Origin: Candidatus Lambdaproteobacteria bacterium RIFOXYD2_FULL_56_26
Lineage (GTDB): Bacteria; SAR324; XYD2-FULL-50-16
Direction of reading: 5' to 3'
DNA length: 64,000 bases
Assembly: GCA_001783715.1 (NCBI GenBank)
Contig: MFNF01000050.1
Span: 1 to 64,000 of the forward strand
Position numbers and translations under genes: made by a program. Under the pieces are notes generated by a model. That model saw only the letters and a program-made list of their open reading frames with translations, was not told the origin of the DNA and ran no database searches. The number at the start of each line of letters is the position of its first letter. The first letter of the stretch is position 1. Below are positions 20,899 through 62,989 of this stretch, piece after piece.

Positions 20899-23457
20899 CT
20901 ACACCGAGGCTAGGTCAACCAAGTCGGAGGGCTCCAAAATCAAGACGATGTCCCCGCTGCCCAAGATGGTCGAGCCACTCAAGCCGGGGATCTTGGTCAG
21001 ATAAGATTGCAGCGGCTTGACCACGATTTCTTGTTGGTTGTACAGGTCGTCCACCACCACACCCATCACCTTGGTCCCCACTTGGATAAAAACCACGCTG
21101 ACCACCCGGTTGGGGTCCGGCTCCTTTTCGGGCAAGGCCAACAGGCGGGAGAGGCGGGCCACCCCAATGATGTCGCCCCGCAGGTTGATCGCCTCTTTTT
21201 GTTTGAGCTGGTGCAATTCGCTTTCCTTGATCTCGATCGACTCTTTGACCGATTCCAACGGAATGGCAAACATCTGGCCCCCCTCGATCACCAAAAGCGC
21301 ATCGATCACCGCCAAGGTCAGAGGCAGCAACAAGCGAATCTGGGTCCCCGCCCCTGGTTCGGATTCCACGTCCACACTGCCGTGGATCTTGGAGATGTTG
21401 GTCAAGACCACATCCATCCCCACCCCTCGGCCCGAGATATCGCTCACCTGATCGGCAGTGGAGAAACCAGGGTGGAAGATAAAGGCATTGATGGTCTTTT
21501 TGTCCAAGGTCGGCACCTGTTCGGGACGGATCAGACCCTTTTCCAAGGCCTTTTCCAGCACCCGTTCGGTATTGATCCCCGCCCCATCGTCGATGATGTC
21601 GATGGCAATGGAGCTGCCCAGGTGACTGGCTTTGAGGATGATGTTGCCCATCTCCGGCTTGCCTGCAGCAATCCGCTTCTCCGGGGTTTCCACCCCATGG
21701 TCGCAGGAATTCCTAATGATGTGCACCAATGGATCGCCGATCATCTCGATGATCGACTTGTCGATCTGGGTATTTTCCCCAATCATCTGCAACTGGATGT
21801 TCTTTCCGGTTTTGCGGCTGATGTCCCGGACGATCCTAGGAATCTTTTGGAACACCGTCTTGACCGGGATCAACCTCATCTCCATCAAGGTGGTCTGGAG
21901 GTCTTCGGAGATTCGGTTGAATGCCGCTTCCACGGACCGAAGGTTGGTAAAGACATGGGCAGGCAGATTGGCCCCGGCCATTTCGCCTAAGGTGTGGTTG
22001 AAGCTGTTCCTGGCGATGATCAATTCGCCGATCAGGTTCATGAAGGTGTCCAAGCGGTAGGAATCCACCCGCATGGTTTTGAGTTCCGAATCCTTGTCCT
22101 TGTCCGCCTGAGACTGGGCCGGGGCGGCCGGAGCCGGAGCGGGGGCGGGTTTTTTGGCCGCCGGAGCCGCCTTTTCTGCCTCCGGCTCTTTGGCCTTCGC
22201 CTTGGTTTTACTCGGTTCGGAAGCCTGCAGGTATTGGTTCATCAGCTCTTCAATCTTGAGCCCCAAGTCCATCGCCGGGCCTTGCACCTCACCGGAGTTT
22301 TTTTCCCCGGCCAAGACCGACATTACCAAATCGTCATACTTCTTGAGCAGCTCCAACAGGTCCTCGGCACCGATCTTTTCGGCGGCCCCCGACAGGGTCC
22401 TGACCGTACGGTTGAGTACCATCAGGTTCTCTTCGCCAATCTCTCCGGAGGCCAACTCTCCGCCTGCCACCTGGATGGCTACCAGATGTTGACTGCAGAG
22501 GTTCTTGAAAACGTCAAAGGCGCTGAGCCCGGCCGGAGCTTCCTTGGAGGCAGGTGCCGCCACAGCGGCTTTGGCTGGTGCAGCTCCGCCGCCCAAATAG
22601 CGGTCCAATTGGCCAACCACTTCGTCCACCGAGATCATGCCGATGTCTTCGTCCATTTTGATCATAAAGATCAAGGTCCGCAGCAGGTCCAAGCCCTTCA
22701 GGGTCAAGTCCGCCAACTCGGAAGAATAGGCGGCGCTGCCTTTTCTGACCTTGTCGAAAACGGTCTCCATCTTGTGGGAAAGCCTGGTGATCTTGCCAAC
22801 GTTGACGTAGGCCGCAGTGCCTTTGATGCTGTGGGTCGCCCGGAAGACCTCGTTGATCGCCTCTTCGTCCCCTGGGCTTTGTTCAAGCTTGAGCAGGTTG
22901 GCTTCAATGGACTGGAGGTGTTCCTCCGCCTCTTGGACAAACTCGCCGATCAATTCCTTGACCATCGGCCCGTCTTCCTCCGGGGCGCTTTTGGCCGGTT
23001 CGGGTGCGGGAGCTTCGATCTTGGGGGTCGGTTCGGCGGCTGCTTTGGGTTGGGCATTGGGTGCCTGTGGGGTACCGGCGGCCAGGGAGTCCAACAGTTC
23101 CATGGTGGTGGAAAGGTCGTATTCGCTTCGCTGGGCTTCCACCAGTTCAAAGACCATCAGCTTGAGCAGGTCGATCGCCGGAAGCAGGGTGTCCATCAAC
23201 TCGGGGGTGATCTGCATGGTCTCTTTGCGGATCATGTCAAAGAGAGTCTCCAACTTGTGGGCCAAGTGGTTGATGTCATCAAGGCCCATGAAACCGGCGG
23301 TCCCCTTGATGGTGTGCATCACCCGGAAGATCCCGTTGACGATGGTCAGGTCCTCGGGGTTCTCCTCGATGTTCAGGAGGTCGTTTTCGATGGCATCAAA
23401 GGCCTCGTGGCTTTCTTCCACAAAACCCTGGATCAGGTCATCCAATTCGTCGGACAT
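20899..23457 (-). CDS. cheA: Chemotaxis histidine kinase CheA with two HPt domains
   Basis: 852-residue signalling kinase that phosphorylates CheY/CheB when driven by MCP arrays. The domains in order are: HPt-1 (about 1-110, phospho-His H48 in HTIKGTAGF), an Ala/Pro linker, and HPt-2 (about 165-285, H209 in HSIKGTAAY). A third HPt-like segment (about 311-410) has Arg353 at the His position. A second Ala/Pro/Lys linker leads to the dimerisation helices (about 465-530), the HATPase with N-box IRNSCDHGVE (581-590), and a C-terminal CheW-like domain. Ordinary CheA has one HPt. It is the last gene of the che operon. Confidence 0.97.
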   Translation of the reverse strand: MSDELDDLIQGFVEESHEAFDAIENDLLNIEENPEDLTIVNGIFRVMHTIKGTAGFMGLDDINHLAHKLETLFDMIRKETMQITPELMDTLLPAIDLLKLMVFELVEAQRSEYDLSTTMELLDSLAAGTPQAPNAQPKAAAEPTPKIEAPAPEPAKSAPEEDGPMVKELIGEFVQEAEEHLQSIEANLLKLEQSPGDEEAINEVFRATHSIKGTAAYVNVGKITRLSHKMETVFDKVRKGSAAYSSELADLTLKGLDLLRTLIFMIKMDEDIGMISVDEVVGQLDRYLGGGAAPAKAAVAAPASKEAPAGLSAFDVFKNLCSQHLVAIQVAGGELASGEIGEENLMVLNRTVRTLSGAAEKIGAEDLLELLKKYDDLVMSVLAGEKNSGEVQGPAMDLGLKIEELMNQYLQASEPSKTKAKAKEPEAEKAAPAAKKPAPAPAPAAPAQSQADKDKDSELKTMRVDSYRLDTFMNLIGELIIARNSFNHTLGEMAGANLPAHVFTNLRSVEAAFNRISEDLQTTLMEMRLIPVKTVFQKIPRIVRDISRKTGKNIQLQMIGENTQIDKSIIEMIGDPLVHIIRNSCDHGVETPEKRIAAGKPEMGNIILKASHLGSSIAIDIIDDGAGINTERVLEKALEKGLIRPEQVPTLDKKTINAFIFHPGFSTADQVSDISGRGVGMDVVLTNISKIHGSVDVESEPGAGTQIRLLLPLTLAVIDALLVIEGGQMFAIPLESVKESIEIKESELHQLKQKEAINLRGDIIGVARLSRLLALPEKEPDPNRVVSVVFIQVGTKVMGVVVDDLYNQQEIVVKPLQSYLTKIPGLSGSTILGSGDIVLILEPSDLVDLASV

Positions 23458-23471
23458 AGCTCCCCTTCGGT

Positions 23472-23837
23472 TTAACCAAGCAGCATTTTGGCATTTTGAA
23501 TCAACTGGTCGGCTTTTACCGGTTTAACCAGATAAAGATTGGCTCCCGCCTTGAACCCCTGCATCTTGTCCTCTGCTTCCGCTTCGGTGGAGACGATGAT
23601 AATGGGGACATTCTTGTGCTCTTCCGAAGACCTGATCTCACGGCAAAAGGTGAAACCGTCCATCTTGGGCATATTGATGTCCACCACCATCAGGTCGTAG
23701 TGGGTGGACATCGCCTTTTCCAAGCCATCGTAGCCGTTCTCCGCTTCCGCAACGATGTATCCGGCGGACTTGAGCATCACGCTGTGTAGATTCCGCACAA
23801 TCGGAGAATCGTCGATCACCAACACTTTTTGGGCCAT
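23472..23837 (-). CDS. cheY: CheY-like single-domain response regulator
   Basis: 121-residue receiver: acidic pocket D9-D10, phosphoacceptor D53 (VVDINMPKMDG), switch residue S83/T84, and K105-P106. It has no output domain. It lies between the HEAT gene (5-base gap) and cheA (14-base gap), so it is the likely CheA phospho-target that acts on the flagellar motor switch, or a phosphate sink. All catalytic residues are present. Confidence 0.95.
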   Translation of the reverse strand: MAQKVLVIDDSPIVRNLHSVMLKSAGYIVAEAENGYDGLEKAMSTHYDLMVVDINMPKMDGFTFCREIRSSEEHKNVPIIIVSTEAEAEDKMQGFKAGANLYLVKPVKADQLIQNAKMLLG

Positions 23838-23842
23838 GGGTC

Positions 23843-25786
23843 CTACTCCAACTCGTCTATCGCCTGTTCCAACGCACTTTGAAGGTCCGCTTCAGCCCCT
23901 TCGGACAACTCCCTTAACACCGGCAACAACTCGGAAAGCCCCAGCGCCCGAGCCGCTTCAACCGCTTCGATCTGCACCCAGGTGGAAAGAGAAATCAGGA
24001 AGGGCCGCAAAAGCGCCCCGGCGCTTTTGAGCCGGAACAAAACCACCACCTGGATCAACTCTACATCAACCTGTTCGTTTTCTCCCGCCTTTTTGTGGAT
24101 CAGGCCGGAAACAAATTGCACCAGCTCCGGGTCCTCCGACAAGGTCGCCAGCCCCCGAACCGCCTCGACTCTCACCGCCGGGGCCGGATCGGCAATCCCT
24201 TGGGTGATTAAGTCATAGGTCAATTGACCTAGGTTTGCCAAGACTTTGAACGCAACCACTCGAATTGGTTCTTCCGGGTCCTGGGCAGAGGCCAGGATTT
24301 TGGCCGGGGTTAGGCCGGGGTCCTCCGCCCCAAACAGCCCAATGGCCAAGGCTCTCTGTTCGGGAGTAAAGGACCGAATGTAGGCGGCGACCCCACAACT
24401 TTTGTCTTCGGAGCCCAGCTGGATCAGGGCGTTGTCGATCGCTTCCTTGACATCGCTTTCTGATTCCTGCTGCATCTGTTCGACCAACGGGGCCACCCAG
24501 GTCGAGGCCCAGTGTTTCTGCCCGGCGGCCCGGCCCACCAATTCGGCAGCGCTTTTGCGCACTTCGGGGCTTGGGTGGGAAAGGCCTTGGCTCAACTCCG
24601 CCTTAAATTCTCCGACCTCCTGGACCGGCAAAAACCTCAATCCGGCGGCAAACAAGACCGGGTCTTCGCTGCCCAAGGCCAACCGGAAAAACCGCTCCGC
24701 CCCTTTGGGGTCCAGGGTGGCAGCAACCTCCAGGGCTCCGGTTTTTTCGGCAGGTGCGGCGGTGGGGGAAGAAAGTTTTTCCAAGAAAGGGGACAGGTCT
24801 TTGTCGGTTTGGCGGCCCAAAGTGGCGATCACCTGCTCCCGGACCGGCAGACAAGAGTCCCCCAGGTAAGGCAGCAGCGCATCCCGCCCGGAATCTAGCC
24901 TAAGGAAGTCAAACAGTTCAACCGCCATCAGACGGTGTTCCTCCGCCCCGGTGGCCAACACCGAAGCCAAACAGGGGAGTATTCCTTGGGGTTTGAGGCC
25001 CATCCGTTCTTCGGCGCTTAAGCCCACCACGATGTGGTGCAGGGCGGCGACCATTTCGGAGGCAAAAAAACCCGGGTCTTCGGTAGCCATCACCTCAATC
25101 AGTGCTTCTGCCGCTTCGGAAATAACAATCTTGCCGATCCCCTGGATGCAGGTGATCTTGACCACCAAGTCCGGGGATTTGAGGTTGGACCGCACCAACC
25201 GCAGGGCCTTGGCCCCGCCGATGGAGGTGATCCCTCGAACCACAGCGCAGCGCATCCATTCGTCTTCCACCCCCAGGTAGGTGGAAAGAATCTCCAGGTG
25301 GGTCGAGTCGCCCACCGCACCCAGTCCGTCTGCCGCCGTCGCCGAGACGTTCACATCTGAGTCGTCCAGCGCCACCACCATGGCTTTGATGCTGGCATCC
25401 GAATGGATGGCCAAGAGGCAGTCCACCGCAAACTTGCGTACGTCCCGGTTGCGGGATTGTAATTCCTTGGCCAGCATCGGCACCGCCAAGTCCCCCAACC
25501 GTACCAGGATCTCGCAGGTCAGATTGCGCAACCTAACATCTTCGGTCCCCAGGTTTCCGATCGTCTCCAGGACCACCGGTTCCCCGCCCAGACCGGCCAG
25601 TGCGGCGGCGCAAGCTTCGGCCACGGCTACCGAAGGGTCGTTCAGTCCTTTGGCCAAGTAGGGGACCGCTTCATTAAATCGCCCATACTCCAAGTCCTCG
25701 GCGGCATACCTCCGGTTGGTTTCGTCACCATGTTGGAGCTCGTTGATCAACCTCCCAAATTCGGACAACCGGTTTTCGTCACTCAT
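23843..25786 (-). CDS. HEAT-repeat protein in the chemotaxis operon
   Basis: 647 residues made almost wholly of HEAT/Armadillo-type helix pairs. Repeats show phrases such as GDETNRRYAAEDLEYG, RDVRKFAVDCLLAIHSDAS and PAVRVEAVRGLATL. The pattern extends from the N- to the C-terminus without a catalytic domain, signal peptide or membrane segment. HEAT proteins of this kind occur inside che operons of several deltaproteobacteria-like genomes and are thought to be scaffolds; no role is proven. It sits between cheR (23 bases) and cheY (5 bases), so it is certainly co-transcribed. Confidence 0.85.
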   Translation of the reverse strand: MSDENRLSEFGRLINELQHGDETNRRYAAEDLEYGRFNEAVPYLAKGLNDPSVAVAEACAAALAGLGGEPVVLETIGNLGTEDVRLRNLTCEILVRLGDLAVPMLAKELQSRNRDVRKFAVDCLLAIHSDASIKAMVVALDDSDVNVSATAADGLGAVGDSTHLEILSTYLGVEDEWMRCAVVRGITSIGGAKALRLVRSNLKSPDLVVKITCIQGIGKIVISEAAEALIEVMATEDPGFFASEMVAALHHIVVGLSAEERMGLKPQGILPCLASVLATGAEEHRLMAVELFDFLRLDSGRDALLPYLGDSCLPVREQVIATLGRQTDKDLSPFLEKLSSPTAAPAEKTGALEVAATLDPKGAERFFRLALGSEDPVLFAAGLRFLPVQEVGEFKAELSQGLSHPSPEVRKSAAELVGRAAGQKHWASTWVAPLVEQMQQESESDVKEAIDNALIQLGSEDKSCGVAAYIRSFTPEQRALAIGLFGAEDPGLTPAKILASAQDPEEPIRVVAFKVLANLGQLTYDLITQGIADPAPAVRVEAVRGLATLSEDPELVQFVSGLIHKKAGENEQVDVELIQVVVLFRLKSAGALLRPFLISLSTWVQIEAVEAARALGLSELLPVLRELSEGAEADLQSALEQAIDELE

Positions 25787-25809
25787 GGAGCCTCTGCCTT
25801 TGGAGTTCC

Positions 25810-26655
25810 CTACTTTTGGTAGGAAAGGGATTTTTGGAATTTGACCAGCTTGAAGGCAGCACTCAGCTTGCCGACCGATTCGGAATGGCCCAAAAAGATA
25901 AAGCCCCCGGGGTTGAGTGCGTCATAAATCCCGCCAACCACCTTCTTGCGGGACTCTTCGTCAAAGTAAATCAGCACGTTCCGGCAGAAGGCGAAGTCAA
26001 ACCCCTGCATCCGCCTCATCCCCATCCGGTCCATCAGGTTGAGCTGGCTGAATTTCACCTGCCGGGCTACATCGGCCTTGACCTTGTAATGCCCGGACTG
26101 GACCTCAAAATAGCTGGACAGCACCTTGGGCGGGACATCCTTGACCGACCTTTGGTCGTAAACCCCCGCTTGCGCCTTGGCTAGGATCTTGGTGTCCAGG
26201 TCGGTGGCGACCACTTCAAATTGCCATTTCGCAAAATCCGCCACCGCTTCCTTGACCATCATCACCAAGGTGTAAGGTTCCTCGCCGGAGGAACAGGCAG
26301 CACTCCAGATCCGCAGGCGGAAGTCCCCTTTCTTGCGTTTTTCCGCCAACACCAACGGCAGAGCCTCTTCCACAAAGGATTCCAATTGGGGGATGTTGCG
26401 GTAAAAATAGGTTTCGTTGGTGGTCAACTCTTCAAGCAATTGGTTCATCTCATTGCCACCCCCCAGCTTGAGCAGGCGAAAGTACTCCTTGGCCGAACTG
26501 GAGTTGGTCGCCTGCATCCGCTTTTGGACCCGCTTTTCAATGAAGTAAAATTTCTTTTCCTCGAAGAACATCCCGGAGGTAGCCAGGACCAAGTCCCGAA
26601 TGGGGACCAAGTCTTCGGCGGGGATGGCGGGGGAGTTGTCAACCAATAGAGTCAT
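25810..26655 (-). CDS. cheR: Chemotaxis protein methyltransferase CheR
   Basis: 281-residue SAM-dependent MCP glutamate methyltransferase. It has the N-terminal helical domain (about 20-90) with TTNETYFYRN, then the SAM-binding IWSAACSSGEEPYTL, and the C-terminal FDFAFCRNVLIYFD and HSESVGKL segments. No TPR extension. Its ATG overlaps the cheB stop (ATGA, 26652-26655), so the two are coupled and methylation and demethylation stay balanced. Confidence 0.97.
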   Translation of the reverse strand: MTLLVDNSPAIPAEDLVPIRDLVLATSGMFFEEKKFYFIEKRVQKRMQATNSSSAKEYFRLLKLGGGNEMNQLLEELTTNETYFYRNIPQLESFVEEALPLVLAEKRKKGDFRLRIWSAACSSGEEPYTLVMMVKEAVADFAKWQFEVVATDLDTKILAKAQAGVYDQRSVKDVPPKVLSSYFEVQSGHYKVKADVARQVKFSQLNLMDRMGMRRMQGFDFAFCRNVLIYFDEESRKKVVGGIYDALNPGGFIFLGHSESVGKLSAAFKLVKFQKSLSYQK

Positions 26656-27791
26656 GCCATTTCTCCGGCGAGATGGAGGATTTTCTCGGCGATTTTATCA
26701 TCGTCAAGAATATACTCGGCCCCGCCCATTTCAACCACTCTTCCGGGCATACCAAAAACCACACAACTCTTTTCCGACTGGCAGACGGTGTGGCCCCCAA
26801 GCTTGCGTAGCTCGGTCAAGGCCTTGGCCCCATCGGCACCCATGCCGGTTAACATCACCCCCAGCCACTGCTTTCCCAGCGCTTCAATGAGGGTTTCAAA
26901 AAGTACATCCACCGAAGGCATATAGATCTTGCCTTGCACTTCGTTGTAGAGCTTCACGGTCAAAACCCGGTGGTTGCGGTGGGCGATGGCCATGTGCTTG
27001 CCGCCGGGGGCGATGTAGATGGTTCCGGCTTCGATGACCTCGCCTTCCTCTGCCTCTTTGACCTTCATCGGGCAAAGGTTGTTCAACCGGTCAGCAAAGC
27101 TTTTGGTAAACTTCTCGGGCATATGCTGGGCGATCACCAAAGAGCCGGGGAAGTCCGCCGGGAATTCGGGCAACAGGCTCATCAAGGTTTTGGGCCCCCC
27201 GGTGGAAACCCCGATCCCCACCAGCACCCCTTGGGGTCCCTTGGGGACACTTGACGGCACCGACAAGGACAAACCGGAATGGGAGTCCGAGCCCAAAGAC
27301 GGCATCGCCCTGGGGCCAGGGCTAGTGCTGAGACTGGATCTGGGCAAAGGTTTAGCCGCTACCGGGGTCCGTTTGGTAAAGGTGTTTTTGGCCCTGGAAG
27401 CCGCCGCTGCCTTGATCTTCTCCCGGATCTGGTCCCCTTGGGTGTCGATGTCCCGAGAAATGGAACCCGAAGGTTTGGCCACAAAGTCAACCGCCCCCAA
27501 TTGCAGCGCCTCGATGGTTTCGTCCGCCCCTTCCTGGGTCAGCGAACTGATCATCAACACCGGCCTGGGGTAGTCCCGCATGATCAACTTGAGCGCTTCC
27601 AAGCCACCCATCTGGGGCATGTTCACGTCCATGGTGACCACATCGGGGTCCAGGCTCTTGACCTTCTCCAGGGCAAACTTGCCGTTGAGAGCGGTACCCA
27701 CCACCACCAATTCGGGGTCCTTTTCGATGATCTTGGAGAGCTCGGCTCGCATCAGCGCCGAATCGTCAACCACCAGTACGGAATAGGGCAT
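26652..27791 (-). CDS. cheB: Chemotaxis methylesterase/glutamine deamidase CheB
   Basis: 379 residues. Receiver domain (1-120) with D55 phosphoacceptor; a Ser/Pro-rich linker (about 140-185); then the methylesterase domain with the catalytic triad S196 (GVSTGGP), H223 (QHMPEKF) and D320 (MGADGAKAL). It removes methyl groups from MCPs after phosphorylation by CheA. It starts 17 bases after cheW and overlaps cheR by 4 bases. Confidence 0.97.
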   Translation of the reverse strand: MPYSVLVVDDSALMRAELSKIIEKDPELVVVGTALNGKFALEKVKSLDPDVVTMDVNMPQMGGLEALKLIMRDYPRPVLMISSLTQEGADETIEALQLGAVDFVAKPSGSISRDIDTQGDQIREKIKAAAASRAKNTFTKRTPVAAKPLPRSSLSTSPGPRAMPSLGSDSHSGLSLSVPSSVPKGPQGVLVGIGVSTGGPKTLMSLLPEFPADFPGSLVIAQHMPEKFTKSFADRLNNLCPMKVKEAEEGEVIEAGTIYIAPGGKHMAIAHRNHRVLTVKLYNEVQGKIYMPSVDVLFETLIEALGKQWLGVMLTGMGADGAKALTELRKLGGHTVCQSEKSCVVFGMPGRVVEMGGAEYILDDDKIAEKILHLAGEMA

Positions 27792-30337: not shown

Positions 30338-30643
30338 TTAGTTCTTAGACAACCACTCGGCCAACTCGTGCTTCTGGTCTTTGCTCAAACCCTTCACAGC
30401 GGGGATCATGGCAGCCAACATGGGGCTGTTGTTCCTTTTCCCATCTGCAATGTCGTTCATTTGCTTTTCCAGGTAACCTGCATGTTGCCCAGCCAAATTG
30501 GGGTAGGCGGGGTTTGCAGACTTACCTGCGGGGCCGTGGCAAGCAACACATTTGGCGTAGTCGCCAGCGGCATCAGCCATAACCATGGAAGCACCAGAGA
30601 AGACCAGGGCAGAGCCCAAAAGCAGACCGATAACTTTTTTCAT
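30338..30643 (-). CDS. Periplasmic class I cytochrome c (c553/c5-like)
   Basis: 101 residues with a signal peptide (MKKVIGLLLGSALVFSGASMVMA, cleavage near 23). The single heme site is C32-V-A-C35-H36, and M75 or M79 in NSPMLAAM is the likely sixth ligand. YPNLAGQHAGYLEKQM is typical of small c553-type electron carriers. It is a mobile electron carrier between respiratory complexes. The open frame extends upstream to 30724, but the ATG at 30641-30643 has AAAGGA eight bases upstream and begins the signal peptide. Confidence 0.93.
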   Translation of the reverse strand: MKKVIGLLLGSALVFSGASMVMADAAGDYAKCVACHGPAGKSANPAYPNLAGQHAGYLEKQMNDIADGKRNNSPMLAAMIPAVKGLSKDQKHELAEWLSKN

Positions 30644-30858: not shown

Positions 30859-32622
30859 TCAGTCCAAGGGGAACAAAAGCCGAAAGCTGCTGCCTTTGCC
30901 CAACTGGGACTCCACTTCCACTCGTCCTTTGTGTAACTTCATGATGTTTTTGACGATTGAAAGCCCCAATCCAGTACTGAGGTCGTTGCCACTTCTCGCC
31001 TTGTCCACCCGGTAAAACCGCTCAAAGATTCGGGGCAGTGCCTCAACCGGGATCCCCAGCCCCTGGTCCTTGACCTCCAGGGACCAGTTTTGGTTGGACC
31101 GGAACCACCCGATCCGCACCTCTTTCCCTTTGCCGCTGTACTTGATGGCGTTATCCAAAAGGTTGATCAGGGCTTGCTCCACCAGCCGGGGGTTGATTTC
31201 CAGCTTGTGGGGTTCCCCTTCTTCTAGAATCAGGCTGATGCCCTTGGCCTTGGCGTTGGGTTGGCAGAGTTGCAAGGCCCCTTTACAAAGCTCCTTGAGG
31301 TCGGTCCGCTCCCGCTCCATGGCCTGTTCAAAACCGTCTTGCTCGATCCGGGCTAGGCTGAGCAGGTCTTCTACGATCATCTCCAGCCGGCCGGTCTGCC
31401 TAGCGATGATCGCCAAAAACCGCTCCAGCTCCGCCGGGTCGTCCTTGGCCCCGTCCTGCAAGGTTTCCACGAACCCCTTGATAGCGGTAATGGGGGTTTT
31501 CAGTTCATGGCTGACGTTGGCCACAAACTCTTTGCGGACATTTTCCAGTCGCAGCAGGTGGGTGAGGTCGTACAAGGCCAAAAGCACGCCGATTTGCCGC
31601 CCCTTGCCGTCGGTCAAGGCGGTTCCGGTCGCTCGGACCACCTTGTCGGTTTGGTAGATCTCGATTTGGGCGGTCACCGGGGTTTCCAACAACAAAGTCT
31701 TTTGGACAAAGGTTTCCAAAGCCGGGTTGCGGACGATCTCCACCAGCTTCTTTTTGTAGGCATCCCCCAGGCTCAGGATCTCCATGGCCGCCGGGTTGAG
31801 GTTGGTGATCCGGCCTTCGGGGTCTAGCACCAAGAGACCCTCTCCAATCCCGGCAAAAATCGCTTCCTGTTCGCACTTTTGCCGGTCGATAGTTTCAAAC
31901 CGGTCCTCCAGTTGCTTGGCCATCAAGTTAAGCGCCCGAGACAGTCGGTCCAACTCCAAGGACTCAAACCCCGGCAACCGAACCGTAAGGTCGCCTTGGG
32001 CAAAGGCTTGGGCTTGTTTTTGGATCTCCTCCAAAGGGATTGAGACCCTTCTAACCACCAGCAGACTGGCCAAGGCTGCCGCCAGTCCCAGGCCCAACGC
32101 CAACCCGGCAATGGCCGGGCGGGTCCAGGAAAGCATCTCGGTATAATAATCCAAAGGAACACCGATCCGCACCACCCCCACCGGATGGACTCCAATCAAG
32201 ACCGGCCTTGCTACGTAGAGCATTTCCCGCTGCTCGGTAAACCCAAATCTCTGGACTGCCAAGGATTCCCCTTGTATTGCCCGTTGGATCTCCTCCAGTC
32301 CGGCCAACTCTTCGGCTGCGCTCAAGTGACCCAAACTGTCGGCCAAAAACTCCCCTTGCAAGGAAACCAAAGTTACCCTTACATCCCCCCCCGAGGCCAG
32401 CCGCTCCGCTATGCCCCCTAGCAGGACCCACTGCCGTTCCTCGATCAGCTTGGCCAACTCCGGCTCCAGGACCTTAGCCCGGAGCAGCAGTTCCCTACTG
32501 ACATAGTCCACAAAAAAACGGGAATACCGGTTGGCCACCAAGGCGCTCAAGAGCAGCATGGCCGTCACAAACACCAACAAAAGAGGCGGGAAAATCTGCC
32601 AAATCAATTTTTTAGGATTCAT
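30859..32622 (-). CDS. PhoR-type sensor histidine kinase (orphan)
   Basis: 587-residue inner-membrane kinase. It has TM1 (about 8-30), a periplasmic sensor (31-165), TM2 (168-190), a HAMP region (190-245) and a PAS domain (about 250-360). HisKA follows with H372 in FVANVSHELKTP, then the HATPase with LLDNAIKYS, DQGLGIP and TGLGLSIVK. The domain order is that of phosphate sensor PhoR, but no response-regulator gene is adjacent and the stimulus is unknown. It starts 15 bases after mtnA, suggesting co-transcription. Confidence 0.92.
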   Translation of the reverse strand: MNPKKLIWQIFPPLLLVFVTAMLLLSALVANRYSRFFVDYVSRELLLRAKVLEPELAKLIEERQWVLLGGIAERLASGGDVRVTLVSLQGEFLADSLGHLSAAEELAGLEEIQRAIQGESLAVQRFGFTEQREMLYVARPVLIGVHPVGVVRIGVPLDYYTEMLSWTRPAIAGLALGLGLAAALASLLVVRRVSIPLEEIQKQAQAFAQGDLTVRLPGFESLELDRLSRALNLMAKQLEDRFETIDRQKCEQEAIFAGIGEGLLVLDPEGRITNLNPAAMEILSLGDAYKKKLVEIVRNPALETFVQKTLLLETPVTAQIEIYQTDKVVRATGTALTDGKGRQIGVLLALYDLTHLLRLENVRKEFVANVSHELKTPITAIKGFVETLQDGAKDDPAELERFLAIIARQTGRLEMIVEDLLSLARIEQDGFEQAMERERTDLKELCKGALQLCQPNAKAKGISLILEEGEPHKLEINPRLVEQALINLLDNAIKYSGKGKEVRIGWFRSNQNWSLEVKDQGLGIPVEALPRIFERFYRVDKARSGNDLSTGLGLSIVKNIMKLHKGRVEVESQLGKGSSFRLLFPLD

Positions 32623-37570: not shown

Positions 37571-38689
37571 GTGGCAAAACGTGACTATTATGAGATCCTG
37601 GGGGTCGGCAAAACCGCCAGCAAAGAGGAACTCAAAAAAGCCTACCGCAAACTGGCCCAGCAGTACCACCCGGACAAAAATCCAGACGACAAGGTGTCGG
37701 AGGAAAAGTTCAAGGAACTGAGCGAAGCCTATGAAATTTTGAGCGATGCCGAACGGCGAGCCCAATACGACCGGTTTGGCCATTCCGCAGCCAACATGGG
37801 CAGCGGCCAAAACCCCTTTGAAGGGGCGGGCGGCTTTGGGGACATCTTTGGGGACGTGTTTTCCGAGTTTTTCGGCGGCAGCGGCGGTCGCCGTGGCGGC
37901 CAGGGAAGCCGCGGAGAACGGGGCTCGGACCTGTCCTACAATATGGAACTGACCTTTGAACAGGCGGCCTTCGGTTACAGCACCGAGTTGGTCATCCCCC
38001 GGCTGGAAGAGTGCGGACAGTGCGGCGGCACCGGGGCCCGAAGCTCTAAGGACATCGACCTTTGTTCGGTTTGCGGGGGCTCCGGCACCCAGCGGATCCA
38101 ACAGGGCTTTTTCTCGGTCGCCACCACCTGCTCCAACTGTCGGGGCACTGGCAAGGTGATCAAAAATCCCTGTACCTCCTGCCATGGCCGGGGTCGGGTC
38201 AATGCCCGCAAGAAGCTCAAGGTTTCGATCCCCGCCGGGGTGGACACCGGGGCTCGGGTCAAGCTGACCGGAGAGGGCGAAGCCGGAGTGGGCGGCGGTT
38301 CCAGGGGAGACCTCTACCTGGTGATCCGGGTCTTGGAACATGCAATCTTTGAGCGGGACAACTACGACATCTACTGCCGTATCCCCATCAGCATTACCCA
38401 GGCCGCCTTGGGCAGCGAGATCGAGGTGCCCACCTTGGCCGGTAGGGCCAGGGTGACCATTGCGCCGGGGACCCAAAACGACCAGACTTTCCGCCTCCGG
38501 GGCAAGGGGATCCAAAAGCTCCAGAGGCCCGACTTTGGGGACCTGTACGTCAAGATCATGGTGGAGGTGCCCACCAATCTGAACAAAGAGCAGAAGAAGA
38601 TCCTGGAACAATTTGCTGCCATCAGCAATGAGGACAGCACCCCCATCAAAAAGGGGTTCATGGAGAAGCTGAAAAGCTTCCTTTCTTGA
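37571..38689 (+). CDS. dnaJ: Chaperone DnaJ (Hsp40)
   Basis: 372 residues. J domain (1-70) with the HPD motif in YHPDKNP; a Gly/Phe-rich stretch (about 75-110); four zinc repeats [24 protein letters not shown] and CTSCHGRG; then the substrate-binding C-terminal domain. It stimulates DnaK ATPase. GTG at 37571 gives the usual MAKRDYY start; a TTG directly before it is in frame and gives one more residue. Confidence 0.98.
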
Positions 38690-45353: not shown

Positions 45354-46679
45354 TTAGGCGTAAATGCTCAAGTTATCGCTCGGCGATTGGGGCTTGGCCT
45401 CCACTGGGTCGGGTACGGTCAGCCTGGGCTCAAAACCTCGCCTCTCTTCAGGCTTGGATGCATTTTGTGCGCCTTGGTTTTGGGACTGTCCGCCCCCCTG
45501 GTCCGCCTGAGCAAACCCGGATTGAGGCTGGTCCTTGAGTTCAATGGTGAAGGACTCCACCTTGATCCCTTGGGCAAAAAGATTGTCCCGCAGTTCGGGG
45601 ACCAATTTTTCCAAACCTTCCTTGGCTTCCACCGAATCCACCTTCATCTTGCCGGTGTAAGTCTCACCGTTTTTGGCCAATTTGATCTCTACCTTGCCCA
45701 GGTGCTCCGGTTTGAGCTGGAGGGTCATCTCGGTCCGTTTGGCGTTGAGCATCATCCGCAGATTGGTCCCCAGGTGCTTGAGGTCCGGCTTTTCGGTCAT
45801 TTCCGGCTTGGGGGCGGGGACGGCGGCCTTGAGGTCCTTGGCCTCAGTCTTGGTCAAGCTGGTCTTGGGGGCGGCTAGGTTCAGGCCGGGGACTTCGGTA
45901 TTGGCGGTCTTGGCCATACCGGTCTGGTTCATCTCTTTGGCAAAAGCGGCCGCAGCCTGGGCCAGCGGTTGGGCTCCGCCCAGTTTGGAGACCGAAGCAA
46001 TCTGGGCTTGGTTGCCCTTCTGGCCGCTGGGGTTTCGCTGCTGGTCAAACTGTTGGTGCTGGTTGCGCCGTTGGGCAATGGCTCCCTCGGGGCTGGGCTG
46101 GTTGTTGAAGGTGGGGTTGAAGCCCTCGGGGGCTTGGCCGCCTTCCTTTGCTGCCTGGGCTTGGGCGTGGGCCTCGGTGAACTGGGCCTTGGGCTTGTTC
46201 GCTTCCGCCTCTGCCTGGGCCAAGGCGGGGTTAAAGAGGTGGCCTCTTTTTTCCATGGTCTTTTGCTCGCCGATCTTCTCGGCGGTGCGGCCTTGGATCT
46301 CCTCCATGCCCTTTTGGAACTTAAACTGGGCCTGTTGGTTGGTCATCTTGCGCCCGGTGGAGGACTCGGTGGCTTCGTTGTTGGACCACTGGCTTTGTTC
46401 CTGGGCAGATTTTACCTTGTGTTCGGTCACAAAGGACTGCACAAAGTTACGGTCCGAGGTTTCCTGGGCCAGTTGCTTCTTGGTCTTTTTTTCCTCGAAA
46501 AGCTCTTTGGAAGCCTTGAGGGTCTCCGCCTTGACCTCGTTTTTGTCCAGCATCCCCAGGTCAACCTGGGCGGCGACCAATTGGCCGGTAAATTTTTCCA
46601 GGTCCGCCGGAGTTTGGTGTTTGACCGTATCGGTTTGGAACTGGGTTTTGGCGTTCAGATTGCCTTGGGCGATGTTCAT
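45354..46679 (-). CDS. fliK: Flagellar hook-length control protein FliK
   Basis: 441 residues, mostly low-complexity and Gln/Ala/Lys-rich. The C-terminal export-switch domain (about 310-390) is recognisable: MTLQLKPEHLGKVEIKLAKN, the hallmark LxPxxLGxVxI motif. It measures the hook and switches secretion to filament subunits. ATG preceded by GGGAGACCTCC. The repetitive N-terminus is normal for this gene and carries no extra meaning. Confidence 0.95.
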   Translation of the reverse strand: MNIAQGNLNAKTQFQTDTVKHQTPADLEKFTGQLVAAQVDLGMLDKNEVKAETLKASKELFEEKKTKKQLAQETSDRNFVQSFVTEHKVKSAQEQSQWSNNEATESSTGRKMTNQQAQFKFQKGMEEIQGRTAEKIGEQKTMEKRGHLFNPALAQAEAEANKPKAQFTEAHAQAQAAKEGGQAPEGFNPTFNNQPSPEGAIAQRRNQHQQFDQQRNPSGQKGNQAQIASVSKLGGAQPLAQAAAAFAKEMNQTGMAKTANTEVPGLNLAAPKTSLTKTEAKDLKAAVPAPKPEMTEKPDLKHLGTNLRMMLNAKRTEMTLQLKPEHLGKVEIKLAKNGETYTGKMKVDSVEAKEGLEKLVPELRDNLFAQGIKVESFTIELKDQPQSGFAQADQGGGQSQNQGAQNASKPEERRGFEPRLTVPDPVEAKPQSPSDNLSIYA

Positions 46680-56747: not shown

Positions 56748-56777
56748 AAAAAAAGCCCGGTCTTCCGGGCCTTTTTT
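56748..56777. terminator. Bidirectional intrinsic terminator
   Basis: Six-bp stem GCCCGG / CCGGGC with TCTT loop, seven A before and six T after. It lies between the 54-aa gene and the MCP gene and overlaps the MCP stop codon on the minus strand. Confidence 0.88.
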
Positions 56778-58488
56778 ATTCGATCTTAAAGACCGAAACC
56801 TGACTTTTGAGCTTCTCGGCCATCCTCGAAAGGTCTTCGGTTGTGGTGTCCACCTCTCCAATGGTCCTTGAAAGTTCGCCCATCGCCAAGGCGTTGGACT
56901 GGCTGTTTTCGCTCAACTCGTCAGCAGTCTGAGCCAAAGAAGAAGTTTGTTCGCTTTGCCGAGAGATCTGGGCGGCCACTTGGTCCACGTACTGGCTGAT
57001 CTTCTCCACTTGGGCAATGATCCCACCCAGCAATCTGCCCGCCTGCCCCACCACCATTATCCCTTGGGCGACGTTGGCATAGGAGACCTCCAACAGCCGC
57101 TGGATTTTTTCGGTGGCTCCATGGCTTCGGTCTGAAAGGTTCCTGACCTCGTCTGCAACCACCGAGAAGCCCTTGCCGAACTCTCCGGCCTTGGCCGCCT
57201 CAATGGCGGCGTTGAGGGAAAGCAGGTTGGTCTGGTTGCTGATGTCCACAATCACCGACATGATCCCCAATATCTGTTTGGAGGAATCCTCGATCTTGCT
57301 CATGCTTACCGTGGTCGCCTCCACCGACTTGGTCCCTTCCTGGGCATCCTGGGAGGCTTGAGCGGCGATTTGCTGCGCCTGGGTGATCATCTCCTTGATC
57401 TTGAACAACGAGTCGGCCATGGCCTTCACATTTTCGGAGGTCACCGCCAAGGCCGTACTGGAATTTTCGATTCCATGGTTGACTTCCGCTGTGGTCCTGG
57501 AGATCTGGTCCGAGGTGGCGTGCAGCTCTTCAGAAGAGGCGGCCAGGGTTTCGGCGGTCCCGTCGATCTCTTTGATGACCTTGTGGATGTTGTCGATAAA
57601 ATGGTTGAATAACACCGCCAACCGTCCCACCTCGTTTTCCTCACGGATCGGCAGTCGTTTGGTCAGGTCTCCTTCCCCATCGGCAATGTCCTTGAACCGA
57701 AGCTCCAGTTGCTTGAGCGGAATAAAAATCATCCTGTTGAGCATCAGCGAAAGGATCCCCAAAATGGAGAGCACCATGACCAGCAGCGTCACGATGTTTT
57801 TGACCAAGTTGTGCCGGGCCGCTGCCAAGGTGTGCTCCATGTCGAAGGCCACCGAAACCACAGCCATGGTTTTCATCGGGTCCACCGCCATGTCCACCAC
57901 GTGGCAGGAAGCACAGGCCCCGATAAATTCGATCGGCTGGCCTCGAAGCTCGATGGGTTCCTTGTCCATGATCGCCACCCCAAAAACCCCTCGGAAGACC
58001 TTGTGGCCCTTTTTGAAAAGTTTTTCGTCTCCATCCCAATCCACGACCCCGTAAAAACTCCCCCCTTCGGCCAGAACCTTGCGATCCCAGCTGTCTTGGG
58101 GCAGCTGACGGTAGTTGATGCTAGGTTCGGTTTCCACGTAGGAGGCAATCTTGTCCCCCCAAGAGTACCAGACTACCGTGTCTTCCAAGGATTTGTTGAG
58201 CAGGACCAAGACCACGTCCAAGGCATCGGCGGGAACCTGAGTCAACCGGAGCTGGACCTCGTGGGGCAGGGAGTAAAAATGTTCCCCCAACTGGTCCCGC
58301 ACTCCAGCCCGACTCCACATAAAGGCTTGATTGGTGGCGGTACCAAAGCGGACCACGTTGGTGATCTGCTGTTTGATCCGTTCGGTGACCTCAGTGATCC
58401 CTTGGTTGTAGTCGATGACCTCCTTGACCGCAAAGGGTAGGACTAGGATCAAGGACATAAACAGGAAAATCTTGGTTTTAATCGACAT
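56776..58488 (-). CDS. Methyl-accepting chemotaxis protein with periplasmic heme c site
   Basis: 570 residues. TM1 (about 6-23), a periplasmic sensor (24-228), TM2 (229-250), HAMP (about 250-305) and the cytoplasmic MCP signalling domain with tip SRQSEQTSSLAQTADELSEN late in the chain and FSVVADEVRNLSDRS at the hairpin. The sensor contains C192-A-S-C195-H196, a CxxCH c-type heme site, in a Tll0287/PAS-like region. The protein is therefore likely a redox, oxygen or NO sensor feeding CheA through the CheW protein. Its two Cys must be exported and processed by cytochrome c maturation. Confidence 0.9.
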   Translation of the reverse strand: MSIKTKIFLFMSLILVLPFAVKEVIDYNQGITEVTERIKQQITNVVRFGTATNQAFMWSRAGVRDQLGEHFYSLPHEVQLRLTQVPADALDVVLVLLNKSLEDTVVWYSWGDKIASYVETEPSINYRQLPQDSWDRKVLAEGGSFYGVVDWDGDEKLFKKGHKVFRGVFGVAIMDKEPIELRGQPIEFIGACASCHVVDMAVDPMKTMAVVSVAFDMEHTLAAARHNLVKNIVTLLVMVLSILGILSLMLNRMIFIPLKQLELRFKDIADGEGDLTKRLPIREENEVGRLAVLFNHFIDNIHKVIKEIDGTAETLAASSEELHATSDQISRTTAEVNHGIENSSTALAVTSENVKAMADSLFKIKEMITQAQQIAAQASQDAQEGTKSVEATTVSMSKIEDSSKQILGIMSVIVDISNQTNLLSLNAAIEAAKAGEFGKGFSVVADEVRNLSDRSHGATEKIQRLLEVSYANVAQGIMVVGQAGRLLGGIIAQVEKISQYVDQVAAQISRQSEQTSSLAQTADELSENSQSNALAMGELSRTIGEVDTTTEDLSRMAEKLKSQVSVFKIE

Positions 58489-58584: not shown

Positions 58585-60126
58585 TCAATGGGCCGGGACC
58601 CAAAAATCAAACGACTCGGGACGGCCACTCAAGCGCAGCTTTACTTCCTCTGCCTCCCCTAGGCTCAACTTCACCTCTTTACCGGCAGGTCCGTACAAGA
58701 CCAAGCTCAACAGCCCTTCGGACAGCCGCTTCACCTCCACCTCGACCAAGGGGTCAAAACTCCAACTCAACTCGGGAGGCAGCGGGGACCCGTCTTTTCT
58801 TTGCAGCAAAAAAACGGTGCCCCTGGGGACCTCCAATCGGGTGCGCAGCCAATAAACCGGCTTGCCTTGGGCTTCTGGAGGGTAGCAGGGGGGAGCAACC
58901 GGGAAAAGCCGGGTGGCATCACCGGAGCCGCCCAAGATTTGGACCTGGAACCTCGGTTGCCCCGATACGGAAAAACTCACCTGACTGCAAGCCGCCCCTT
59001 CCAGCAACAGGCTGAAGCTGTTGGGATCCTCCCATTCCAGCTGGGCTTTTGTCCCTTCGGGGCCTTCCCACTCCAGGTCTCCGAAGGTGGGTTGGCCTTG
59101 CCGGGGCGGCAGGTAGAGGCTAAAAGGTTGTCCAGAAGGCAAAGCCAGCCACTCCCCCTGGCCTTGCAAAGTCACCAATGGGTGCTTGGGCTCCTGGATC
59201 ATAAAGTTCCAACGGCTCTCCTGCTTTTTGCCCTCTGCCTCAAACCGCAACCGCACCTCCACCGCCGCCCCCCAAGGCAACCGCTCGGCCGGGAAGGCGA
59301 CATGGCTGTACCGGTCCAGCCGGTGTTGGGGGTCCGTTTTGTTGGAAAGAATTCGCAGCAACTCCAAGGGCTGTTTCTCCCCTGGAAGCCATAGCTCCAA
59401 GGCCAGTAGTTTGGGCGGCTCGGGGTAAAAGGCGGGGTTGAAGGACACCGAAACCGGGTACCCGGAATAACCACGGTCCGGCAAAGGGTCGGGGGTTTCC
59501 TCAAAAAAAGCCGGTGGCACCGACACCCCTTCGGCGGGCCAAAGGATCCGAGCCGGACCCTGGGGCCGGGGGTCCGCTTCCGGCACTTTGGCCGGGAGAC
59601 ATTCGGGCAACAGGTCCAGGTCGGCCTTGTCCACCAGACAAAGGGAGGCGGCCCGAGCATTGCCCAGGAGGTACACATAACTGGCAGAATCCCCCTCCCC
59701 GGCTTTGGCCCAACCAACCCGGTCCCACTGGGGGTCCAGGAAGGCCAGACGGTGGTAAATCGCCGCCATCAAATCACTGAGGCTCGCCTGTCCATTGGCT
59801 TGGCCCAGGGAAAAATTCTCCGCCACCAGACTGGAGCTCCAACCGGCGTTCAAGGCCCGGCGGCTGGGGGTTTCACCGGTAAAACCCGGCTCGCCTTGTT
59901 CCTGCCGGTGGTCCTTGCGGCCCCCTTGGCTCAGGTACAAGGCTTGGCCCTGTGCTGCCAAGGTCAACCGAGGGTCCACCCACAACGGGGCCAGCCCGGC
60001 AGAGCTACGGATCCGGTTGAGCGATTCAATGGCCGTGGCCTCTTGGGCCCAAAGGGACGGGCACCAGAGGACCAGGAACGTCCCCAACAACAGCGGTCGG
60101 GCCACCCGCATCCCCGCTCGCTTCAT
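58585..60126 (-). CDS. Secreted CAP-domain protein with large C-terminal part
   Basis: 513 residues, with a signal peptide (MRVARPLLLGTFLVLWCPSLWAQ; about 6-28 of the product). Residues about 30-180 are a CAP/SCP (YkwD-like) domain: IESLNRIRSSAGLAPL, AAQGQALYLS, SLVAENFSLG and YVYLLGNA. The rest (about 200-513) is unassigned, with beta-rich, Pro/Leu-rich sequence. Its ATG overlaps the stop of the DUF815 gene (ATGA). CAP proteins of bacteria are secreted and mostly of unknown activity. The longer frame to 60252 has no domain support. Confidence 0.8.
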   Translation of the reverse strand: MKRAGMRVARPLLLGTFLVLWCPSLWAQEATAIESLNRIRSSAGLAPLWVDPRLTLAAQGQALYLSQGGRKDHRQEQGEPGFTGETPSRRALNAGWSSSLVAENFSLGQANGQASLSDLMAAIYHRLAFLDPQWDRVGWAKAGEGDSASYVYLLGNARAASLCLVDKADLDLLPECLPAKVPEADPRPQGPARILWPAEGVSVPPAFFEETPDPLPDRGYSGYPVSVSFNPAFYPEPPKLLALELWLPGEKQPLELLRILSNKTDPQHRLDRYSHVAFPAERLPWGAAVEVRLRFEAEGKKQESRWNFMIQEPKHPLVTLQGQGEWLALPSGQPFSLYLPPRQGQPTFGDLEWEGPEGTKAQLEWEDPNSFSLLLEGAACSQVSFSVSGQPRFQVQILGGSGDATRLFPVAPPCYPPEAQGKPVYWLRTRLEVPRGTVFLLQRKDGSPLPPELSWSFDPLVEVEVKRLSEGLLSLVLYGPAGKEVKLSLGEAEEVKLRLSGRPESFDFWVPAH

Positions 60127-61517
60127 CCCCGGTTGGCCAAAAATTGTTCGATCGTCCGGCCCGAAGGTTTGTCGTGGTGGTTGTGGGCTGCAAAACGCAG
60201 GAACTCGGGCCACCATTCCTGGGCCTTTGCTGCCGCTCCCTTTTGGCCGCACAGGAACACAAACAGCTTTTCCAGCTCCTCAAAGACTGGCCGGTCAAAG
60301 TGCAGCTTGAGCCCAAACCGGTCGCCCAAGGCCCTGGCTTCATCTTCCTGCTGCCGGTCCCCCGGCAGGGTCGGGTCCAGCGGCAAGGTGGAAACCAAAT
60401 TCACCTTGTTGGAGGTGGCGAGCAACATCAGGTTCTTGGGCATCTGTTCCAAGGAGCCTTCAAAAATACTTTTGAGGGCCTTAAATTCGGGGTGCCCCGG
60501 TTCAAAACCAAAGTCGTCCAAAAAGAGCACAAACTTTTCTTTTTTGCCTTCGATCCACCCAAACAACCGGGGCAGCTGTCCCAAGTCCCCCTGGGACACC
60601 TCGACCAGCCGCAGGCCCTGGGACCAGTATGCTTCGAGCAGCCCCAAGGCGGCGCTGGACTTGCCCATCCCCCGAGCCCCCCAAAGCAGGATGTGGGTGA
60701 AGCCCTGGGAGCCCAAAAACCGTTCGGTCATCTCCCGCAGCTTGGCCAAAGGCTCATCAATCCCAAACAGCCCCTCCAAGGGGGTCCATTTTTTGGGCTC
60801 GTCTCCTTGCAAAGCACAAACGCCTTGGGTATCTTGGCGGTACAAAAAGGCTTTGTGCCGACTGAACAAACCGCCGGAGTTTTTCTCCCAAAAGGCTTCC
60901 AGCTTAGCCAACACCGCTTCGGGTTGGGGAGGGTCAAACAGATCGTGCAGCGCCGCCAAACTGCAAGACCGGGGGGGCAGGTTGCGGCAAAGAGGCGGAG
61001 GCTCAACCCTGGGGCCGTTGCCCAGTTCGGTGAGGTTCAAAAGGCCGATCAACGCCTCTCGGGGCTCCAGGGCCGCAAGCTGGCACCCCAGTTCCACCAA
61101 GGGCAAACGGTCCTTTGGACCCAGGCCCAGCTTGGCGTAGATGTCTTGGTTGGCCAAAAGGTCGCACAGATAGGAGAGCCAAGGGGAGGGACCCAAGGGC
61201 GGGGCCGCCGCCAAGAGCAGGGAGCGGAACCGGTGGTACCGGTCCCACAACCCTTGCGACCCACGGGACTGTTGTTGCACAAAGACCCGTTGGTGGGCCA
61301 AGAGCCCTTCCATCGCTTGGTCTTTTTTGGTCTTCCATTGGAGCAGCAGTTCCTGCTCCAAAAAAGAGTACAGGTCCAGTGCCGCCACCAAAGGCTCCTC
61401 TGGCCCCAACAAGGCCGCCAGGCCCAAGACCTGGGCCTGGTCCAACCCTCGACCCAAAGGGTCGATCAGGTCCTGGTAGGCCCGTTCAATGCTTTGATGA
61501 TCCCACTGTGTCGCCAA
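60123..61517 (-). CDS. DUF815-type AAA ATPase
   Basis: About 464 residues with Walker A GARGMGKSS (about 280-288), Walker B FVLFLDDFGF, sensor SNKVNLVSTLPLDP and AAHNHHDKPSGRTIEQF at the end, the DUF815 pattern. The N-terminal 200 residues are helical and Leu-rich. Start uncertain: TTG at 61515-61517 has AGG-TAAC upstream, while a GTG at 61566 would overlap the pepA start on the other strand. Function unknown. Last codons overlap the CAP-protein ATG, so the pair forms one unit, divergent from pepA. Confidence 0.8.
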   Translation of the reverse strand: MATQWDHQSIERAYQDLIDPLGRGLDQAQVLGLAALLGPEEPLVAALDLYSFLEQELLLQWKTKKDQAMEGLLAHQRVFVQQQSRGSQGLWDRYHRFRSLLLAAAPPLGPSPWLSYLCDLLANQDIYAKLGLGPKDRLPLVELGCQLAALEPREALIGLLNLTELGNGPRVEPPPLCRNLPPRSCSLAALHDLFDPPQPEAVLAKLEAFWEKNSGGLFSRHKAFLYRQDTQGVCALQGDEPKKWTPLEGLFGIDEPLAKLREMTERFLGSQGFTHILLWGARGMGKSSAALGLLEAYWSQGLRLVEVSQGDLGQLPRLFGWIEGKKEKFVLFLDDFGFEPGHPEFKALKSIFEGSLEQMPKNLMLLATSNKVNLVSTLPLDPTLPGDRQQEDEARALGDRFGLKLHFDRPVFEELEKLFVFLCGQKGAAAKAQEWWPEFLRFAAHNHHDKPSGRTIEQFLANRG

Positions 61518-61543
61518 GTTACCTACATCCAAAAAAGGAAGGC

Positions 61544-62989
61544 ATGAAAATCCAGTTTGTTGCCCCACAGGTCCAGAAGAACCTGATCGTATTTTTTGAC
61601 GAAAAAAAACGGCTCCTGCTGCCCAAAGACTGGCCCCAAGAACTGAGCCGCCAGTGGCAAGCCTTTTTGGGGCTGCCGGAGGTCAAGGCCGAAAGTTCTT
61701 CGGTCCACAACCTCTTCCACCCTCTGGTGGAGCGGGTCTTTTTGGTGGGCTTGGGCAAAAAAAGGGACTTTCGGGAGCTCGGTGGAATGTTAGGCAAAAA
61801 ACTGGTCCAACCGGATTTTTCCAACCTCCACCTGCTCTTGCCCGAGGCCCCGAGCCATCCCATCTATAACGAGATTGAGCCGTTTCTGGAAGGTCTTTTC
61901 TTGGGCCGGTATCGGTACCAAGGTTTTAAAACCAAGGACAACCTGCCCGACCCTCTCTCCAATCTGACCTTCCTGGCCCCCAAGACCAAGGCTCTGGCCG
62001 AGGCGGCTTCCCTGGCTTGGACCAAGGCCTTGGCCACCAACCAAGCCAGGGACCTGGGCAACCTGCCGGGCAACAAGATGCGGCCCAAGGACCTGATGGC
62101 AGCTTGCAAGGCGGCAGCCAAGCAGGGCGGATTGACCTTTTCCGCCCTCAACGAGACACAGATGGAAAAAGAAGGCATGGGTTGTCTTTTGGGGGTCGCC
62201 CAAGGGTCCGAAGAGCCCGCCTTTTTGAACATCCTAGAATACAAGGCGGGACCCAAAGCCCCGACCTTACTGTTGGTGGGCAAAGGCCTGACCTTTGATT
62301 CGGGCGGCATTTCCCTCAAACCGGGCCTTGGGATGCAGGAGATGAAACACGACATGTGTGGCGGGGCAGCGGTCCTGGGGGCCATGCAGATCATCGCCCA
62401 ACTCAGGCCCAAGGTAAACGTGGTGGCCTTGATCCCCACCACCGAGAATATGCCCGACGGCAAGGCCACCAAGCCCGGAGACGTGCTGACCGCCTGCAAC
62501 GGCACCACCGTGGAGGTCCTCAATACCGATGCGGAAGGCCGGTTGATCCTGGCCGATGCCCTGGCCTACGGCATCAAGCGGTTTAAGCCCAGTGCGGTGG
62601 TGGATGTGGCTACCTTGACCGGCGCTTGTGTGGTCGCCTTGGGGCACTACCACTCGGGGCTGATGTGCAACGACGAAAAGCTGTACCAACAGGTCGAGCA
62701 GGCCGCCAAGCGGACCGGGGACCCGGTCTGGCGGATGCCCCACGCCGAGGTGTACGACAAGGAGATCGAAGGGACCCTTTCAGACCTCAAAAACATCGGC
62801 AGCAAGGACGGAGGGATGATCACCGCCGGGATGTTCCTCAAACGGTTTGTCGGCGAAGTGCCTTGGGCCCACCTGGACATTGCCGGTACCGCTTGGTCGG
62901 TGGAGCGCATTCCCTACTACCCCACCCAAGGGGCTACCGGGACGGTGACAAGGCTCCTGGCGGACTTGGCGATGAACTGGAAAAAATAA
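61544..62989 (+). CDS. pepA: Leucyl aminopeptidase (M17)
   Basis: 481 residues. The metal and active-site residues line up with E. coli PepA: K247, D252, D270, D329, E331 and R333 (offset of 23). NTDAEGRLILADAL is the family signature and GKGLTFDSGGISLKPG is intact. It removes N-terminal residues from peptides in the cytoplasm. The ATG has AAAGGAAGG in front; it is divergent from the AAA gene with a gap of 26 bases between starts. Confidence 0.97.
   Translation: MKIQFVAPQVQKNLIVFFDEKKRLLLPKDWPQELSRQWQAFLGLPEVKAESSSVHNLFHPLVERVFLVGLGKKRDFRELGGMLGKKLVQPDFSNLHLLLPEAPSHPIYNEIEPFLEGLFLGRYRYQGFKTKDNLPDPLSNLTFLAPKTKALAEAASLAWTKALATNQARDLGNLPGNKMRPKDLMAACKAAAKQGGLTFSALNETQMEKEGMGCLLGVAQGSEEPAFLNILEYKAGPKAPTLLLVGKGLTFDSGGISLKPGLGMQEMKHDMCGGAAVLGAMQIIAQLRPKVNVVALIPTTENMPDGKATKPGDVLTACNGTTVEVLNTDAEGRLILADALAYGIKRFKPSAVVDVATLTGACVVALGHYHSGLMCNDEKLYQQVEQAAKRTGDPVWRMPHAEVYDKEIEGTLSDLKNIGSKDGGMITAGMFLKRFVGEVPWAHLDIAGTAWSVERIPYYPTQGATGTVTRLLADLAMNWKK

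Follow-up and report, generated by a model that had tools for sequence, protein, structure and literature searches.

What does the chemoreceptor (MCP) encoded in this stretch of DNA sense, and does it do so with a covalently bound heme? The window, by which we mean the whole 64,000 nucleotides analysed here, is contig C50 in a genome of 3.08 Mb that is 97% complete. The initial annotation read the receptor as carrying periplasmic heme c and pointed to heme-c MCPs of Geobacter-type bacteria. We believe the heme is well founded and sequence kinship with the Geobacter domains is not. The best explanation, to which we give a probability of roughly 0.7, is that this is a divergent, lineage-restricted transmembrane heme-c chemoreceptor that passes redox or NO/O2 information to CheA. 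Its parts, with predicted boundaries, are as follows.

56776..58488, minus strand: MCP gene, in the order first membrane helix, periplasmic sensor, second membrane helix, HAMP, MCP signalling domain
58414..58476, minus strand: first membrane helix, about residues 5-25, by hydropathy
57799..58413, minus strand: predicted periplasmic sensor, residues 26-230, without a Pfam family
58318..58320, minus strand: Met57 of NQxFMWSR, a stretch of the N-terminal helix; the same residue in three orthologs and a candidate distal heme ligand
57901..57915, minus strand: CASCH, residues 192-196, the putative attachment site for heme c; it lies in a loop, with predicted strand 163-172 before it and 208-216 after it
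57733..57798, minus strand: second membrane helix, about residues 231-252, by hydropathy
57583..57720, minus strand: HAMP domain, residues 257-302 (PF00672, 1.3e-9)
56911..57372, minus strand: MCP signalling domain, residues 373-526 (PF00015, 2.8e-37)

Translation of the gene (56776-58488, minus strand) gives 570 amino acids. That it is an MCP is indicated by the PF00015 domain together with two membrane helices and a HAMP domain after the second (hydropathy and Pfam). The sensor is a segment of about 205 residues flanked by the two hydrophobic helices and lying upstream of the HAMP and signalling domains. CASCH had been placed at residues 192-196, between two membrane segments, and both statements hold: in translation the motif falls exactly there (minus-strand bases 57915 to 57901), and the helices at about 5-25 and 231-252 precede the HAMP domain.

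The motif does not look accidental. The receptor has just two cysteines and both sit in CASCH. Shuffling the protein's own composition 200,000 times gives a chance probability for CxxCH of 5.5e-5. ACASCH is invariant in two orthologs whose sensors are 68% and 51% identical to that of the window's receptor, and each of these again has only two cysteines, both within CASCH, so that His196, both cysteines and the flanking alanine are invariant together. Met57, His70, Met200, Met208 and Met217 are also invariant in the three sequences. Identity across the sensor is 63-71% to the nearer ortholog and 49-53% to the farther. For the C-terminal half of the sensor the two values are 71% and 53%, for the signalling domain 64% and 64%, and for the second membrane helix 38% and 23%. 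The sensor as a whole comes close to the signalling domain in conservation. Its C-terminal half is on a par with that domain and well ahead of the second membrane helix, a pattern that points to a fixed role such as the binding of a cofactor.

The two orthologs (L018 and L019) come from two other genera of the family and occupy the identical syntenic place. A single-sequence scan of genome contigs returned no orthologs; an alignment used as the query then gave two named ones, the nearest in Candidatus Lambdaproteobacteria bacterium RIFOXYD2_FULL_50_16 and the second in the MAG Dive96_bin4.205. These are very probably the sources of the 68% and 51% sequences. The order pepA, DUF815 ATPase, CAP-domain protein, MCP is kept in all three genera, and in L021 the atp genes also stand on the far side. 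The retained neighbour is

58585..60252, minus strand: CAP-domain protein (PF00188), directly upstream of the MCP gene

The CAP-domain and DUF815 ATPase genes together cover 58585-61568 on the minus strand directly upstream of the MCP, and co-transcription is possible.

How far does the sensor reach beyond these genera? The data searched held three natural sequences, and the sensor profile was built from these. Run against 383 genomes from 322 genera across the domain, it found no copy beyond the three known genomes. No sensor match appeared in 291 genomes of another phylum, a set that contained no positive control, nor among the plasmids searched. Some weak profile matches were returned (E 0.02-0.35), and L024, the sole one to span the motif, proved to be an unrelated frame. 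As far as a profile of three sequences can tell, the sensor seems restricted to this SAR324/Lambdaproteobacteria lineage.

Does the motif hold a heme? The CxxCH is extracytoplasmic by predicted topology, and the genome encodes the machinery to fill it. A Ccm-type (system I) maturation set is represented by three PF01578 matches. Contig C46 carries CcmF with CcmE-like and CcmG-like (thioredoxin) proteins, and contig C12 carries CcmC with CcmA-like and CcmB-like proteins; the names beyond the PF01578 matches were assigned by reading the sequences around two of those matches. The search for ccm genes that had been suggested as a check therefore came out in favour of the proposal. Small c-type cytochromes are encoded in the genome as well, among them a protein with two CxxCH motifs whose gene adjoins a heme-sensor gene on contig C40. 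The one reported at 30338-30643 of the window is real (minus strand, CVACH, PF00034 at 9e-9). It is small, secreted and monoheme and lies near the che cluster, with a HAMP histidine kinase close by (30859-32622, minus strand).

The periplasmic sensors already known to carry CxxCH are heme-c proteins (PMC12889525, PMC8396549). Because a periplasmic CxxCH with invariant neighbours occurs here in a genome with Ccm genes, we consider it very likely, judging from sequence, that the sensor carries covalent heme c. The two cysteines could instead form a thiol/disulfide redox switch or a metal site, with no heme and with the histidine incidental, and CxxC is indeed common in both roles. However, His196 is invariant alongside both cysteines and the flanking alanine, the Ccm set would attach heme to a secreted CxxCH, and the known periplasmic sensors with this motif are heme proteins. 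We regard a heme-free site as unlikely. We also rejected a motif of the DnaJ or glutaredoxin CxxC(H) type, since CASCH sits in an MCP sensor; motifs of that type in the window are probably those at 38171 and 4764. A cytochrome c fold for the sensor was rejected too: PF00034 does not match it, and helices, then strands, then CxxCH is the wrong order for such a fold.

The comparison with Geobacter is where we part from the initial annotation. Precedents for a heme-c MCP certainly exist, namely GSU0582, GSU0935 and DcrA (PMC8396549), and to that extent the reference to Geobacter was apt. GSU0582 and GSU0935 of Geobacter sulfurreducens (PDB 3B47, 3B42) share with the window's receptor the order of membrane helix, periplasmic CxxCH sensor, membrane helix, HAMP and MCP signalling domain. 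The predicted arrangement of the window's sensor, helices, then strands, then motif, with a methionine in the N-terminal helix region, is also theirs. Past the motif, however, no sequence similarity to the window's sensor is detectable, and the sensor is about 205 residues long against about 135 in the Geobacter pair (PMC3460858). DcrA of Desulfovibrio vulgaris is likewise an MCP whose periplasmic domain binds a c-type heme, but it has a cytoplasmic PAS domain (PMC8396549) that is absent from the window's MCP; this comparison is by description.

The Geobacter pair, GSU0582 and GSU0935, belongs to PF11845 (DUF3365/Tll0287-like), which a 2026 preprint renamed sCache_heme (PMC12889525). As in members of this family, the CxxCH of the window's receptor stands toward the C-terminal end of a periplasmic domain, which is coupled to a signalling module. 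Unlike them, the receptor is missed by the family model. Neither hmmscan nor a genome search matched the sensor to PF11845 at E <= 10, PF21563 did not match, permissive E-values in Pfam and NCBIfam brought up no sensor family, and single-sequence and profile searches of the PDB, 3B42 and 3B47 included, returned nothing relevant. When the sensor was compared by hhalign with heme-sensor domains of the SAR324 class, 13-15 columns around CxxCH aligned and nothing else, with probabilities of 9-21% for the C-terminal half and 6-14% for the whole sensor. With the motif masked the signal was gone. In the same test, receptors of the kind found on contig C57 of this genome match PF11845 at 98% probability. 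The proposed comparison with the GSU0935/GSU0582 heme domains thus went against kinship: only the motif aligns.

The genome does have a GSU0935-like receptor, but it is the one on C57 (L012/L074; G000:C57:122872-124089, minus strand). Among 21 MCP signalling domains in the genome, only this one and the window's stand in a protein with CxxCH. The C57 protein has the motif CLGCH, followed by HAMP and the MCP signalling domain. Its sensor finds 3B42 and 3B47 as its best PDB sequence matches, each individually weak, and barely passes the PF11845 cut-off. Over a 103-base stretch of the signalling domain the two genes are 90% identical in DNA, whereas their sensors differ in kind, that of C57 being of the GSU0935/PF11845 sort and the window's not. 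Relatives of the C57 receptor (L081, L082, L083) carry CLACH. Two long open frames of 879 and 935 amino acids (L009 on C26 and L011 on C40) have strong PF11845 heme-sensor domains, and the second adjoins a gene for a protein with two CxxCH motifs.

Could the sensor nevertheless be a far-diverged true member of PF11845/sCache_heme, with an ancestor in common with GSU0582 and GSU0935 and a role in sensing NO or redox like theirs? This is a sharper form of our preferred explanation and does not compete with it, so the confidences we give need not sum to one. Predicted structure offers some encouragement. AlphaFold models of the sensor, made with and without the first membrane helix from three-sequence alignments, are of low confidence (pLDDT 46.5 and 41.3). 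Both place N-terminal helices first, then strands at about 144-150, 163-172 and 208-216, then a helix into the second membrane segment, and in both CASCH falls in the loop leading to the last of these strands. The published heme-Cache layout is helices, then strands, CxxCH between two strands and a helix onward (PMC12889525), and the order in these low-confidence models matches it. The strand order would suit one Cache domain with CxxCH inserted between its third and fourth strands (pLDDT 46/41, best Foldseek E 0.05-0.3), and we take a Cache-like fold as a candidate.

In Foldseek the first model has as its best PDB match the extracellular sensor domain of WalK (E 0.053), and the best two matches of the second are both chains of GSU0935 (E 0.28 and 0.65); all are non-significant. 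We treat the resemblance to GSU0935 as a hint, since the amino-acid term in Foldseek may respond to the motif itself. PF11845 proteins are also numerous in the genome and in the class. Set against this shared layout are the missing HMM match at E <= 10, the hhalign signal that vanishes on masking while C57-type receptors reach 98%, and the difference in length from the Geobacter pair. On balance true membership is a serious candidate to which we give slightly less than even odds. That the heme-c sensor instead evolved independently of sCache_heme, so that covalent-heme sensing in chemoreceptors would have arisen a second time within one SAR324/Lambdaproteobacteria family, we think doubtful, at something like one chance in four.

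Returning to the divergent heme-c chemoreceptor that we favour, what would it report, and to what? The receptor was said to lie apart from the che operon, and it does, by about 29 kb. The probable output machinery is

20899..27791, minus strand: che cluster with CheB, CheR, a HEAT-repeat protein, CheY and CheA

The HEAT-repeat protein inside this cluster has 647 amino acids and is encoded between CheR and CheY (23843-25786, minus strand). The window also holds a flagellar gene, for a FliK-like hook-length protein (45354-46679).

We propose that the Ccm machinery would link one c-type heme to Cys192 and Cys195 of the periplasmic sensor, and that His196 would be an axial ligand on one side. On the opposite side the heme would have either no ligand or a weak one, for example the invariant Met57 of the N-terminal helix. 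In GSU0582 and GSU0935 either water or Met60 of the N-terminal helices faces the heme histidine; ligand and spin state switch when the redox state changes, and both NO and CO are bound (PMC8396549). Met57 would be the counterpart of Met60 of GSU0935 and is, by this analogy, a candidate distal ligand. A redox change at the heme, or a small gas such as NO binding to it, would alter ligation, the change would be relayed by strand and helix into the second membrane segment and HAMP, and CheA activity, and with it swimming, would be altered. Heme occupancy and the direction of the response are our inferences in this scheme, as are the stimulus and the axial ligands, which we draw from analogy.

Taxis to redox, O2 or NO had been suggested for the receptor. 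This matches the functions shown or proposed for its published relatives (PMC8396549, PMC12889525), but the part concerning respiratory O2 is less likely. The case for a receptor that steers the cell toward O2 for respiration can point to DcrA, the first heme-c MCP, for which sensing of O2 or redox potential has been put forward, as cited in PMC8396549 and PMC13401364. However, neither a heme-copper oxidase/NorB (PF00115) nor cytochrome bd subunit I (PF01654) was found in the 97%-complete genome by searches to which control genomes responded, and the host is probably an anaerobe. In addition, a characterised signalling-type heme-Cache protein, from P. azotoformans, binds NO stably, lets it go slowly and makes no stable complex with O2 (PMC12889525). 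Because no such oxidase was found we consider O2 attraction for respiration improbable, about one chance in ten. Avoidance of O2 is another matter and may occur. More likely stimuli are redox potential, NO, or O2 in the role of a repellent.

The function we propose is of a known kind, and the sensor domain appears, from sequence comparison, to be an unclassified variant that current family models miss. Heme-c chemoreceptors have so far been described as one family (DUF3365/Tll0287, sCache_heme), and the window's receptor shares the anatomy and the motif yet escapes the model. Surveys that relied on it to count periplasmic heme sensors have therefore probably missed some. The diversity of the family may go far beyond what its profile captures; if not, heme-c sensing has more than one origin. 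For an uncultured SAR324-type lineage the result adds two distinct candidate receptors for redox or gas, the window's and that of C57.
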